Source: Actinomycetes bacterium (GTDB lineage: Bacteria; Actinomycetota; Acidimicrobiia; Acidimicrobiales; Bog-793). From it: 37,444 nucleotides of DNA. The notes under the pieces are model-generated. The model was not told the origin of the DNA. It did no database searches and worked only from the letters and a program-made list of their open reading frames with translations. The stretch is taken from positions 1-37,444 of the forward strand of contig JAJZLV010000071.1 of assembly GCA_021803215.1 (NCBI GenBank). Direction: 5' to 3'. The translations under genes were made by a program, and so were the position numbers. This document shows positions 29,267 to 33,475 of this stretch, piece after piece. Positions within the stretch are counted from its first letter, which is position 1. Each line of letters starts with the position of its first letter.

Positions 29267-30898
29267 CTACTTTCTCGCCCCGAGCTCGACCGCCTTCACC
29301 AGGAGCATGACGACGGCCGCCACCAGGTAGCCACGAAGTACCCACATGCCGACCAGTCGGCTCCGCGACCAGCGAGGTCGGCTCAAGAGGGCCAGTGGGG
29401 GCATGCGCCAGTTGGCGCGCTCCTCGGCAGAAAGCGGCTGTCGCGGCTTTGTCTTGCGGTTGCGGAGCAGAACGGCTCCGCCCCCGAGGTAGGAGAGGAG
29501 GAGGATGCCGCCGAGCGCGAGCGAGAGGGTCTTCACGTCGATCCGGGGGAACAGCGTCGTAGCCATGAGGACGAGCGACATCATCAACAGGACCGAGACG
29601 ATGACACCAGCTACCGCGTTCAGCCAGGGACGGTTGACCCAGGGCCCAAGGACGTCCTTGTCGTTGCAGAGCAGGAGAAGGAAGACCGTTGCGCTCGGCA
29701 GGAGGACACCGGCGAGCGCCTGCACGCCAGTCGTGATCAGACCGAGCGGCGCTCCGGGGATGACGACGAGGCCCGCTGCGACCACCACCATGCCGGTGAA
29801 GGCACCGTAGAAGAGCTTCGCCTCTCGCCAGCTGCGATGGAGCGAGTGGCGAGCTCCGAAGGCGTCGCCGAATGCGTACGAGGTCGAGAGCGTCACCGAT
29901 GCCGCTCCGATGATCGAGGCGTTGAGCAGCACGACCGCATAGAGCGACCCGCTGGCACCCCCGACATAGCGGCTCAGCCCATGAGCGACACCGGCCGCGT
30001 TGGTGAAGTGACCGGCCAGAGGGGTCCTGGCAAAGGCTGAGGCCACGACGGCCATCAGGAGGGAGGCCCCGAGCACGGTGACGAACGATCCCAGGACGGT
30101 GTCCATCCGCTCGTAGTTGATGTAACGAGGCGTGATCCGCTTGTCGACGATGTTCGACTGCTGGAAGAAGAGCTGCCAGGGAGCGACCGTGGTGCCGACG
30201 ATCGCGATTATCAGCAGCACCGAGGTCGAGTTCAGTCCCCCTTTCACGCCCGGGATCACCATGTCGTGGAGGAAGGCACCGGCTCGAGGGTGGCTGTAGA
30301 TCGCGAGCGGGATCACCAAGAAGTTGGCGACTATGAACACGAACATGAACCGCTCCCAACGACGGAAGCTCCCGGTCGCCGTCATGACTACGAGGAGTAG
30401 CGCAGCGATCGGAACGGAGAGGTACTGACTGACGCCGAAGTACCCGAGCGAGAGGCTGACGCCGATGAACTCGGTGGCAATCGTGAGGAAGTTGAGGACG
30501 AACAGATCACCGACCGAGAAGGCCGCCCAGAACTTGCCGAAGCGCTCCTTGATGAGACGCGCATGTCCCACGCCCGTGACCGCGCCCAGTCGCACCACCA
30601 TCTCTTGGTTCACGATCAGTACGGGGATGAGCAGCGGGAGCGTCCAGAGCAGCGTCAGGCCGAAGTTCTGGCCCGCTTGGGAGTAGGTGGCCACCCCACC
30701 GGCATCGTTGTCGCCGACCATCACGATCAGGCCGGGGCCGAGTATCGCGAGAAAGGTGAGAAGGCGGGCTCCCCAGGTCCGCCTGGCTCCGCTGTCGGAC
30801 TGTTGGATGGTGCCGAATGCGCCCTCGATGTCACCGAGGTGAGCTTGGTCGAGAACGGCGCTCGTCGGCTCGTGGTTCGCCTTCACGTCGTCGGCCAC
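29267..30898 (-). CDS. Nramp-family divalent metal transporter with non-canonical metal site
   Basis: A 543-residue protein with about 11-12 membrane helices and Nramp architecture. TM1 reads GPGLIVMVGDNDAGGVATYS, where canonical Nramps have DPGN, so the Asp is kept but Pro and Asn are Ala and Gly (about residues 65-68). TM6 reads GTTVAPWQLFFQQS, where canonical Nramps have MPH, so the metal-ligand Met and the His are Ala and Trp (about 239-241). In the family, loss of that Met relaxes selectivity toward Ca2+/Mg2+, and divergent Nramps that carry Mg2+ are known. The GTG at 30898 has AGGAGG five bases upstream. An MgtE-N/CBS gene lies upstream on the same strand. Confidence 0.88.
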   Translation of the reverse strand: MADDVKANHEPTSAVLDQAHLGDIEGAFGTIQQSDSGARRTWGARLLTFLAILGPGLIVMVGDNDAGGVATYSQAGQNFGLTLLWTLPLLIPVLIVNQEMVVRLGAVTGVGHARLIKERFGKFWAAFSVGDLFVLNFLTIATEFIGVSLSLGYFGVSQYLSVPIAALLLVVMTATGSFRRWERFMFVFIVANFLVIPLAIYSHPRAGAFLHDMVIPGVKGGLNSTSVLLIIAIVGTTVAPWQLFFQQSNIVDKRITPRYINYERMDTVLGSFVTVLGASLLMAVVASAFARTPLAGHFTNAAGVAHGLSRYVGGASGSLYAVVLLNASIIGAASVTLSTSYAFGDAFGARHSLHRSWREAKLFYGAFTGMVVVAAGLVVIPGAPLGLITTGVQALAGVLLPSATVFLLLLCNDKDVLGPWVNRPWLNAVAGVIVSVLLMMSLVLMATTLFPRIDVKTLSLALGGILLLSYLGGGAVLLRNRKTKPRQPLSAEERANWRMPPLALLSRPRWSRSRLVGMWVLRGYLVAAVVMLLVKAVELGARK

Positions 30899-30904
30899 TC
30901 TCAC

Positions 30905-31162
30905 CTCCTCGCGGTGCTCAGCGACGGCCGGCGTCGCGTCGCCCGGGGAGGTGTCAGGCCATGAAGGGCCTCACCTCCGCCAGCAAAGCGGGCCGTCGGC
31001 GGAGCCTCGGTCTCGGAACCTCACCAGCGCTCAGCGCTACTCCTTGTGGTCAGGGGCTCCGCCCCGACCAGATGTCAGCCGGGGCCTCAACGTCAGCTGA
31101 GTGAGCCTTCTACTGGGATGATACGCACTTGCGTCCGACGCCAACAGCCGGCCTCTTGGCAA
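30905..31162 (-). promoter_or_regulatory. Structured leader between the MgtE-N/CBS and Nramp genes
   Basis: This 258-base gap has three minus-strand hairpins before the Nramp SD: TGGTCGGGGC...GCCCCTGACCA at 31047-31070, GCGC-TGA-GCGC just after it, and CTCCGCC...GGCGGAG pairing 30998-31004 with 30975-30981. GGAGTAGC (31036-31043) and CGAGACC (31009-31015) resemble the two conserved loop sequences of yybP-ykoY Mn2+ riboswitches, but they are much too close together for that fold. A GGAGGTGAGG followed by ATGGCCTGA could be a two-codon leader ORF. The first hairpin may simply terminate the upstream gene. Regulation by metal is plausible, not shown. Confidence 0.35.
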
Positions 31163-32458
31163 TCACTCCTCTCGGGCGGTCAGTCCGTAGTCCCGCCGGA
31201 AACCGGTCGGCAACAGAAGCTCCACGACGTCATCGATCGTCACGACGCCGAGCAGCTCACGATGTTCGTGATCGAGCACGGGCGCAACGGTCAAGTTGAA
31301 GTCCGACATCTTCCTCACCGTCGCGCCGAGGTCCCACTCGGGATGGACATGAGCCGCCCGGCTCTCGGCGGCGAGCGCGCCGACCGGGCTGGCGGGAGCG
31401 GCCTTCACGAGCTCCACCACGCTGACTGCGCCCTTGAAGAGTCCATCGTCGTCGAGAACGAAGACGACGGCAAGAGCTTCGGGAGGCGCCTCGCTCGCTC
31501 GGACAGCGGCGAGCGCCTGCTCCACCTTTGACGACGAATCAACACAGGCGAAGTCCGGGATCATCAGCCCCCCGGCCGTCTCGGGGTGGTAGCTGAGCAG
31601 CGAGCGCAGCTTCTGTCGCTGAGGCGGCGGCATCAGGTCGAGGATCGGCAGGCGACGGTCTTGTTCCACCTCGACGATGAGGTCGGCGGCGTCGTCCGGT
31701 GCCATAGAGGAGAGCAAACGAGCTGCCTCGACGTCAGAACGGCTCTGGAGGAACTCGAGCTGGTGCCCGGTGTCAAGCTCCTCGAAAACGTCGGCCTCGA
31801 GCTCCCGGTCGCCGTGCACGGCCTGGATGATCTCCTCGCCCTCTTCGTGCGAGGCGGCCTCGACCAGGTCCGCGATCTGAGCCGGATGCAGCCGAGCCAA
31901 CTTGCGATACGGGATCCGGAGCCGGGCGCTCGGTACGTGCGCCACGAAGGGCTCGATGCTCGTCCAGTCGACCACCGTCTTGGGAGAGCCCCTTCGTCTC
32001 CGAAAGTGCCGCAGGACCAGGGGACGGCTCGTCGGGTCGACCCCCATCACCTCCCACCGGCCGCTGACGCAGGCCAGCTCGATCTCATTGGCCCTGATGA
32101 GGCCGCCCGTGACGACGTTGATCAGGTGATGAGTCGAGAGGTCGCGTCCGAGCAGCAGCTCGCCAGGACGGCGCTCGAAGCGCCGCAGGTCGACCTCGTT
32201 GCCCGAGAAGACCACCCGGCCGGTGCCAAGTCCTGTCGTCTTGTCAATCGGGACGAAAAGATCCCTTCCTCCGATGCGCACGACGAGGCCGGTGACCGGA
32301 GGGTGCGAAGCTCCATCCATGCGGGCGATCAGGTCCACGACGCGCCCGAGGCGCTCCCCCGACTGATCGACGAGAAAACGTCTGAGGACGCCCGAGAGAG
32401 GGAAGCTCGAAATCCCGCTCCCCCGATCTGAGGGTTCCACCTTGTGAAGACTAACCAC
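31163..32458 (-). CDS. Soluble PRC-barrel / MgtE-N / CBS-pair protein
   Basis: A protein of about 431 residues without membrane helices. PRC-barrel-like segments come first (GVLRRFLVDQSGERLGRVVD, then FSGNEVDLRRFERRPGELLL). Next is an MgtE N-domain superhelix (LHPAQIADLVEAASHEEGEE, AARLLSSMAPDDAADLIVEV, SYHPETAGGLMIPDF), then two CBS motifs (ALAVVFVLDDDGLFKGAVSV and LTVAPVLDHEHRELLGVVTI). In MgtE these cytosolic domains bind Mg2+ and close the channel; here the MgtE membrane domain is absent. The Nramp gene follows downstream, so this may be its separate Mg2+ sensor. The start is uncertain: GTGs at 32458 and 32440 both precede the PRC domain. Confidence 0.85.
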   Translation of the reverse strand: MVSLHKVEPSDRGSGISSFPLSGVLRRFLVDQSGERLGRVVDLIARMDGASHPPVTGLVVRIGGRDLFVPIDKTTGLGTGRVVFSGNEVDLRRFERRPGELLLGRDLSTHHLINVVTGGLIRANEIELACVSGRWEVMGVDPTSRPLVLRHFRRRRGSPKTVVDWTSIEPFVAHVPSARLRIPYRKLARLHPAQIADLVEAASHEEGEEIIQAVHGDRELEADVFEELDTGHQLEFLQSRSDVEAARLLSSMAPDDAADLIVEVEQDRRLPILDLMPPPQRQKLRSLLSYHPETAGGLMIPDFACVDSSSKVEQALAAVRASEAPPEALAVVFVLDDDGLFKGAVSVVELVKAAPASPVGALAAESRAAHVHPEWDLGATVRKMSDFNLTVAPVLDHEHRELLGVVTIDDVVELLLPTGFRRDYGLTAREE

Positions 32459-32696
32459 GCTCCGACGGGTAGGCGAGAGGCCGGAGCCAGGACAAGCCAG
32501 CCGCTCTCGCGCCGGGCCGCTCCCCGAGCACCGAAGCCTCGAGCTGTCCGTCCCACCCCGCTGCTCGGAGGGCGGCGGCCTTTGGAGCTGCCTCTGTGGC
32601 CGCCGGCAGCTTTGCCAAGTCCGCCGTCGGCACCGCCGGTCCGGCCCTGCGATCTGTCTGGTGGGACCTAGCTCAGACGGCTCGGCCGGACGTCGC
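32459..32696 (-). other. Gap upstream of the MgtE-N/CBS gene
   Basis: No gene is supported in these 238 bases. The frame of the downstream gene stays open but becomes Pro/Arg/Ser-rich and codon use is lost, so it is probably untranslated leader. Several short G+C hairpins can be drawn (for example around GCCGCCGGC), but I recognise no riboswitch consensus. Confidence 0.4.
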
Positions 32697-33475
32697 TCAG
32701 CCTCCCCCGGCGGGAGCGAAGGTGCCGACCCCGGAAGCGGGACTGTCGAGCCCGCCGGAGTAGCCGGAGCGCAAGAGGGCACCGCGATGGAAGACGTAAC
32801 ACTGGCCCCGCCACGAGACTAGAGAGGCGATCTCGATCGAGCGAACTACTCCGTCTTGCCGGTAGACGAGCCGCTCGCCCGGCGCATGCCGGCAGCCGAT
32901 CGAGTTGTAGCAGCAGCCGGGAGGGATCCAAGCCACCTCGTCTTCGGCCACCAGTACCTCGAGGAGCTTGGCTGAGGCGCCCCCGGGCTGGAGAAGATGT
33001 AGTCGTGGGCGGCCCCGCGAGGTCGAGCTTGCAGTCGGCCACCAGGCGAACTCGCCGGTCGAGGGCGGGATCGCTGATCGCCTTCAGCCGGACGTAGACG
33101 TTCTCGGGGAAGAAGGGCGACATCGCCGCCTCAGAATCGTGGGAGAGGATGCCACGCCAGAGCGCCGCCATGGCCCCCCTCAAGTGCGCCGAGCTCACGG
33201 CTGGGCGAACCGCTGTCTGGGAAAGCGCCCCCGCCGGGTTCGTCGTGGTCGGGAAAAGGGTTGAGTTCGTGGTCGTGGTGATTGCGGTCGTGGTGGCTGT
33301 GGCGGTCGTGGTCGTGGTGGGTGGCGCTGGTGCTCTCTCTCCTCACCTCCGCAGAGGCCTTGCCTGCCGAGCAGCCGGAGAGCAGCAGCGAGAGCGAGAG
33401 GGCTGCTGCGAGGAGCACGGGGCCCTCTCGTGGAACTGAGCACGGGGGCGAGCTACCCGTGGAAGTCGCTCTCAC
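32697..33475 (-). pseudogene. Lipoprotein with Thr-rich linker and conserved C-terminal domain, two frameshifts
   Basis: Three consecutive minus-strand frames join into one recognisable lipoprotein. Frame 1 (from GTG 33475) gives a signal peptide and lipobox, LLAAALSLSLLLSGCSAG. After a skip of one base near GAGAGAG (about 33340) frame 2 gives a Thr-rich linker (TTTTTATATTTAITTTTN) and MAALWRGILSHDSEAA, FFPENVYVRLKAISDPALDR. A second one-base skip near CTCGCGGGG (about 33020) moves to frame 3: GASAKLLEVLVAEDEVAWIP, YNSIG, GERLVYRQDGVVRSIEIASL, VSWRGQCYVFHRGALLR. The last blocks match a domain common in actinobacterial secreted proteins (AWIxPGxCYN, SLISWRGxWYVVH). Pseudogene or sequencing error; an ATG at 33123 with GAGG could start a shorter product. 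Confidence 0.62.

Follow-up and report, generated by a model that had tools for sequence, protein, structure and literature searches.

We analysed a 37,444-nucleotide stretch of DNA from an actinomycete assigned to the Acidimicrobiia (Acidimicrobiales; Bog-793; assembly GCA_021803215.1, contig JAJZLV010000071.1), referred to here in its full length as the window. It carries, side by side, a gene for an Nramp-related metal carrier and a gene for a stand-alone relative of the cytosolic domain of the MgtE Mg2+ channel, which we call the sensor (Table 1). The original prediction, made from the letters alone, had placed two open reading frames (ORFs) here on the minus strand and joined them into a split Mg2+ uptake system; both ORFs are confirmed at these positions. 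The sensor gene lies upstream of the carrier gene on the same strand, the ORFs as listed are separated by 258 bases, and the two genes share one reading frame. For the carrier, the GTG at 30898, which stands behind GAGGAGGTGA, is probably the better start candidate.

Table 1. Features of the carrier and sensor genes in window coordinates (TM, transmembrane helix; pLDDT, predicted local distance difference test).
Feature	Coordinates	Strand	Details
NRMT-type Nramp carrier ORF	29267..30904	(-)	545 residues; Pfam Nramp, E 5e-75
Cytosolic N-terminal carrier motif AVLDxAHxGDIxGA[LF]GTI	30806..30859	(-)	found in nearly all of the 80 relatives, whether paired or not
TM1 metal-site motif D67-A-G-G70 (DxxG)	30695..30706	(-)	NRMT signature (PMC8806188)
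TM6 metal-site motif T238-T-V-A241-P-W243 (TxxA)	30176..30193	(-)	Met and His both replaced
C-terminal carrier motif W[RT]MPPLxLL	29384..29410	(-)	precedes the last helix; motif comparison among relatives
Stand-alone sensor ORF	31163..32458	(-)	431 residues; GTG at 32458, stop at 31163
PRC-barrel-like N-terminal domain of the sensor	32036..32410	(-)	beta-rich in the model, pLDDT mostly >90
MgtE_N superhelical domain	31580..31891	(-)	D255 = MgtE D91, D259 = D95, D223 at E59
Paired CBS domains	31199..31561	(-)	D410 = MgtE D247, N388 = D226, E413 = D250
C-terminal tail PTGFRRDYGLTAREE	31166..31210	(-)	replaces the MgtE plug helix; alignment to MgtE

The closest solved structure to the carrier is EleNRMT (7qia; E 1e-63), other Nramps matching at E 2e-16 or weaker, and EleNRMT is also the top fold match for the carrier part of our model of the pair, with a template-modelling score of 0.89 by target length. 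The carrier lies nearer to EleNRMT than to MntH, NRAT or DMT, and it scores 91.6 bits against the NCBIfam MntH cut-off of 430. As predicted, DAGG stands in TM1 for DPGN and APW in TM6 for MPH, the latter read within TTVAPW. This corresponds to the signature that PMC8806188 gives for the NRMT clade, with DxxG in the first helix and TxxA/T in the sixth, and a linked gene for an MgtE cytosolic domain, common but not universal among NRMTs, is present as well. The position of the TM6 His is occupied by Trp, as in EleNRMT, which would be in keeping with a lack of H+ coupling. The match of sequence and site strongly identifies the window carrier as an NRMT. According to PMC8806188, EleNRMT is the characterised Mg2+/Mn2+ carrier of this clade, does not transport Ca2+ and is uncoupled from H+. 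The same study describes an M235A mutant of EcoDMT that gained Ca2+ but showed no interaction with Mg2+. The earlier notion that loss of the TM6 Met admits alkaline-earth ions is upheld by this mutant for Ca2+ and contradicted for Mg2+. The hallmark of an NRMT is the full DxxG–TxxA site, and loss of the TM6 Met alone is insufficient for Mg2+ transport.

The sensor ORF matches Pfam MgtE_N (E 7e-21), contains two CBS stretches, and aligns with the MgtE cytosolic domain 2yvy at E 1e-23, the combination of MgtE_N and a CBS pair being that of an MgtE channel. The transmembrane MgtE pore domain (PF01769) is absent from the protein, and a search of the host genome did not find it. The predicted architecture, a detached sensor with PRC-like, MgtE_N and paired CBS domains and no membrane part, is borne out, with the qualification that the Pfam PRC match is below threshold in the window protein (E 0.24); 15 of 20 aligned relatives match this family, the best at E 3e-7. 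A structure predicted for the sensor from its single sequence was poor (pLDDT 45) and was discarded.

To compare the regulatory residues, we aligned 64 sensors to Thermus thermophilus MgtE, using site definitions from PMC5882242 and PMC5529423. The equivalents of MgtE D91, D95 and D247 are kept in all 64 sensors, and the E59 position is Asp in 63 of them, a conservative change that the window sensor shares. These residues belong to Mg4, Mg6 and Mg7, the sites between the N and CBS domains that MgtE needs for Mg2+-dependent closure (PMC5882242). The ATP contacts of the CBS domains (Y170, R187, D188, N203 and F227) are not kept, the window sensor having V, V, E, A and L in their place; across the alignment, the F227 position is Leu in 62 of 64 sensors and the R187 position is mostly Val, Ile or Ala. 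Nor do the sensors contain the plug helix with E258/D259 (Mg2/Mg3 residues). They end instead in a short basic tail, which is of the P-x-x-W/F-R-R type in nearly all of the 64 and usually reads [IL]PxxWRRR. Because the Mg2+ residues are kept and the ATP contacts and plug helix are gone, the sensor plausibly retains the Mg2+-dependent closing movement and has probably lost ATP tuning, and its output element is, by alignment, new relative to MgtE. The idea that the MgtE channel gate is simply reused did not hold, as the helix that closes the MgtE pore is absent and a different conserved tail is found instead.

The original prediction had called for a survey of co-occurrence, and two surveys indicate that the pair is kept. 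In 40 genomes related to the host, an Nramp match was counted as paired when it lay within 6 kb of an MgtE_N gene, which applied to 28 of the 57 found. Each of these 28 belongs either to type A (DNDAGG/TTVAPW) or to type B (GNDAGG/TTISPY), and no pairing was seen for the types DDDPSG, DTDAGS/AVIMPW, DNDPTT and FVDIGD; an MgtE_N neighbour accompanies 28 of 34 DAGG/DAGA-type Nramps versus 0 of 22 Nramps of other types, far more than chance would give (Fisher p 4e-10). A wider scan covered 80 loci labelled Actinobacteria (including Mycobacterium and Streptomyces), Chloroflexi, Dormiibacterota, Alicyclobacillus and Proteobacteria, among others, which were picked by similarity to the window carrier and so speak for its clade only. 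An adjacent sensor is present in 63 of these loci and missing from 11, and 6 end at a contig edge (63/74 informative loci, from several phyla). Sensor placement varies (upstream, downstream or divergent) while the linkage stays. In several mycobacteria the sensor frame ends about 20 bases or less from the start of the carrier match, and no natural fusion of sensor and carrier was found among the 80 loci. Nearest-neighbour tests placed the sensors according to carrier type in 28 of 28 cases, which indicates that the carrier paralogues have their own sensor paralogues.

Other arrangements were seen at individual loci. Two seemingly orphan sensors in the host's family sit at contig ends, and at L072:1020-5360 two divergent DNDAGG/TTVAPW carriers lie side by side with no sensor in that stretch. 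Two type A carriers (G006:C92, locus L069; G031:C61, locus L070) are accompanied by a divergent sensor that is apparently far from the usual type A sensors, which may reflect partner exchange. Sensors of the same architecture with no Nramp neighbour stand directly beside a DUF1003 membrane protein (PF06210) at L092:3716-5477 and L095:4262-6164, suggesting another partner for the sensor module. At L094:3416-6518, the neighbour of a stand-alone sensor, encoded on the same strand and about 2 kb or less away, is a protein for which the MgtE pore (PF01769) was the sole domain found; the arrangement resembles a split MgtE.

The host genome (2.64 Mb, 95.5% complete) encodes two Nramps and two MgtE_N genes and no more, and at each of the two loci an Nramp is paired with an MgtE_N gene. 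At the second pair (L005:2883-5850, contig C65), the carrier is of the GNDAGG/TTISPY type and the sensor ends in LLPERGRLHFPRFLQ, without the WRRR tail. CorA was not found in this genome, with a positive control that matched in 14 of 14 genomes; MgtA gave no match over the cut-off and a separate MntH was not found, both Nramps being of the paired type. One CNNM-type protein is encoded. Across 24 genomes of the host's family, the MgtE pore occurs in none and CorA in six; MgtA exceeds the cut-off in one genome, and another has a strong partial match. Neither CorA nor the MgtE pore was found in 17 of the 22 family genomes that bear a pair or a sensor (12 of 15 among those at least 90% complete). 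Because the host genome revealed no other recognised family of Mg2+ importers, the gene content suggests that the carrier–sensor pairs carry Mg2+ import in this lineage.

Riboswitches provide further information on the ion. An M-box Mg2+ riboswitch (RF00380, E ~1e-31 to 1e-35) lies just upstream of the clade-A carrier in three Alicyclobacillus species and one Mycobacterium, and M-boxes also lie upstream of three mycobacterial sensor–carrier pairs. Since these are close relatives of the window carrier, their M-boxes support the view that Mg2+ is the ion that matters in the type A clade. The M-box is a feature of a subset of NRMTs and does not define them. The window gave no match to an Rfam riboswitch, and its 258-base gap yielded chance-level matches only.

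Two conserved segments of the carrier, a cytosolic N-terminal motif and a C-terminal motif, are common to clade-A carriers and are candidate contact points for the sensor; the N-terminal motif in particular may be a regulatory or docking element. In some carriers that lack a neighbouring sensor (L177, L180 and L165), an additional charged insert precedes the W-x-TP motif of the C-terminal region. The two window genes share a frame, and the pair was therefore modelled with AlphaFold as one artificial chain of 1063 residues, with the intergenic stops read through, a construct that says nothing about real translation. The alignment had 79 rows; apart from the query, 12 were linked. The individual domains were confident (pLDDT 83.6), and the predicted template-modelling score was 0.59, for which we roughly estimate ~0.54-0.57 without an interface and 0.76 with one.

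Given these features, we favour, with moderate confidence, a mechanism in which the NRMT carrier takes up Mg2+, probably also Mn2+, and is throttled in trans by its own cytosolic Mg2+ sensor. When cytosolic Mg2+ rises, the ion would bind between the N and CBS domains of the sensor, at sites of the Mg4, Mg6 and Mg7 type, and lock the sensor in a compact form. The compact sensor would then slow the carrier from inside, probably through direct contact of the sensor tail or PRC part with the conserved cytosolic N-terminal or C-terminal segments of the carrier. Because the plug helix is gone, this output step must differ from that of MgtE. In 2014, Shin et al. (PLoS Genet, PMC4072509) named NrmT, noted that most members adjoin a homologue of the MgtE N-terminal cytosolic domain, as in Clostridium acetobutylicum (Ca_c0685/Ca_c3329) and Acidobacterium capsulatum (Acp2976/Acp2977), and speculated that the partner either controls NrmT by feedback from the cytoplasm or acts as a chaperone for the metal. 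As they both reported the pair and proposed feedback control, the window pair shows an already published association once more, now in another lineage, and is not new in kind. The additions made here are the pair-linkage counts, a host with two pairs and no other recognised importer, the M-boxes before close relatives and the residue pattern of the sensors. Those passages of the 2022 EleNRMT structural study (PMC8806188) that a search brought up do not discuss the role of the partner, and literature on Rv1232c/Rv1231c and on DUF1003 with magnesium yielded nothing on mechanism.

The split system of the original prediction stands as an NRMT-type Mg2+ carrier with a linked, detached sensor, on the strength of the conserved pair, the kept Mg2+ residues and the lack of another recognised importer. 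Its physical coupling fared less well, and several observations weigh against a throttled carrier. That the sensor regulates the carrier is something we infer rather than observe. The predicted complex structure that had been called for revealed no confident carrier–sensor interface in a 1:1 single-chain model with 12 linked rows; this result carries little weight, given that MgtE-type modules act as dimers and that the linked rows are few. In Bacillus subtilis, rescue by the A. capsulatum carrier was full for Mn2+ uptake and weak for Mg2+ uptake, the carrier's co-expressed MgtE-like partner gave no further rescue, and the C. acetobutylicum carriers were functional without their partner (PMC4072509). 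Of the 11 unpaired carriers, seven occur in genomes that encode a full-length sensor at another place and four in genomes that encode none; these four imply that the carrier can work alone and that the sensor is not strictly required for it. The conserved N-terminal and C-terminal motifs likewise occur in unpaired carriers. Furthermore, residues of the Mg5 site are changed in the sensors (D226 to N, D250 to E), and neither the window nor the scanned Acidimicrobiia loci yielded an M-box.

The A. capsulatum experiments, with a carrier that also sits beside an MgtE-like gene, would fit a carrier that imports mainly Mn2+, or divalent ions broadly, and a sensor that reads Mn2+ or total divalent load. 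So would the Mn2+ transport described for EleNRMT (PMC8806188), and a host whose only two Nramps are both of the pair type, with no separate MntH found. We nevertheless regard this as unlikely: M-boxes precede close relatives, neither CorA, the MgtE pore nor MgtA was found in the host, and the carrier lacks the TM6 Met, which favours transition metals. The missing interface, and the unpaired carriers in genomes without a full-length sensor, could also mean that the sensor makes no contact with the carrier, being a Mg2+ buffer or chaperone or acting on another target, and is tied to the carrier by shared expression only. Shin et al. named a chaperone role as their alternative (PMC4072509), and related sensors adjoin DUF1003 membrane proteins or, in one case, lie ~2 kb or less from a stand-alone MgtE pore protein. 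Adjacency that persists in upstream, downstream and divergent gene orders, and the paralogue-specific pairing, argue instead for direct co-function, and we consider a purely expression-based link rather improbable.

The direction of the effect can be questioned as well. A PRC-like domain and a new C-terminal tail without a counterpart in MgtE, together with the lost plug helix, might belong to an activator or assembly factor, such as a membrane-targeting partner, and not to a Mg2+-dependent brake. The Mg4 and Mg6 interdomain residues are kept in all sensors, which speaks for a brake, and an obligatory activator is disfavoured because the C. acetobutylicum carriers function without a partner in B. 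subtilis (PMC4072509); an activating role is, in our judgement, quite unlikely. The sensor lacks a pore domain, as would a decaying mgtE remnant that lies beside the carrier by chance. We rejected this explanation as extremely improbable in view of full-length conservation across phyla, invariant Mg2+ residues, the PRC-like domain and the conserved tail.

Within the favoured mechanism of a carrier throttled by its sensor, we tentatively propose that the sensor is a soluble subunit dedicated to inhibition, which is locked by Mg2+, blind to ATP and acts through a new tail in place of the MgtE plug helix. It could then be a portable Mg2+ brake that acts on the LeuT-fold NRMT, and perhaps on DUF1003 proteins or detached MgtE pores, and that governs the lineage's only recognised Mg2+ import route. 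If the sensor does throttle the carrier, a module that also occurs in an unrelated channel would here exert feedback in trans on a metal carrier of the LeuT fold. The partner's role was left open in 2014, and a lineage in which the pair seems to be the sole recognised Mg2+ importer makes the question directly testable.

Upstream of the sensor, positions 32668-33475 on the minus strand contain a lipoprotein-like start (LLLSGCSAG) and a low-complexity stretch. Coding in this region is apparently scattered over several frames, perhaps owing to a broken gene or an assembly error.

Compared with known systems, the carrier most resembles Eggerthella lenta EleNRMT (7qia, 7qji), with which it shares the Nramp fold, the DxxG–TxxA site, NDAGG and GTT[IV]APW. 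EleNRMT has GTTIAPW where the window carrier has TTVAPW, and the window carrier is longer at both ends, the aligned part covering approximately residues 48-447 of 545. Classical Nramp Mn2+/Fe2+ carriers such as MntH have a similar fold, with ~20% identity in the structure alignment, but their DPGN and MPH metal and proton residues are replaced in the window carrier. The sensor shares the MgtE_N superhelix and paired CBS domains with the cytosolic domain of T. thermophilus MgtE (2yvy, 2zy9), keeping the Mg4 and Mg6 residues and, conservatively, Mg7. It differs from MgtE in being a separate protein with no pore or plug helix, in having lost the ATP contacts and in the added PRC-like domain. The NrmT pairs of Shin et al. 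offer the nearest precedent for the whole locus, with an Nramp-related carrier beside a stand-alone MgtE cytosolic homologue and a proposal of feedback. The window locus differs from them in lacking an M-box, in the PRC-like sensor domain, which the main text of PMC4072509 does not mention, and in a host that has two such pairs and in which CorA, the MgtE pore and MgtA were not found. These comparisons yield precise predictions, with Mg2+ sites that are kept, an output element that is replaced and carrier segments that are conserved.

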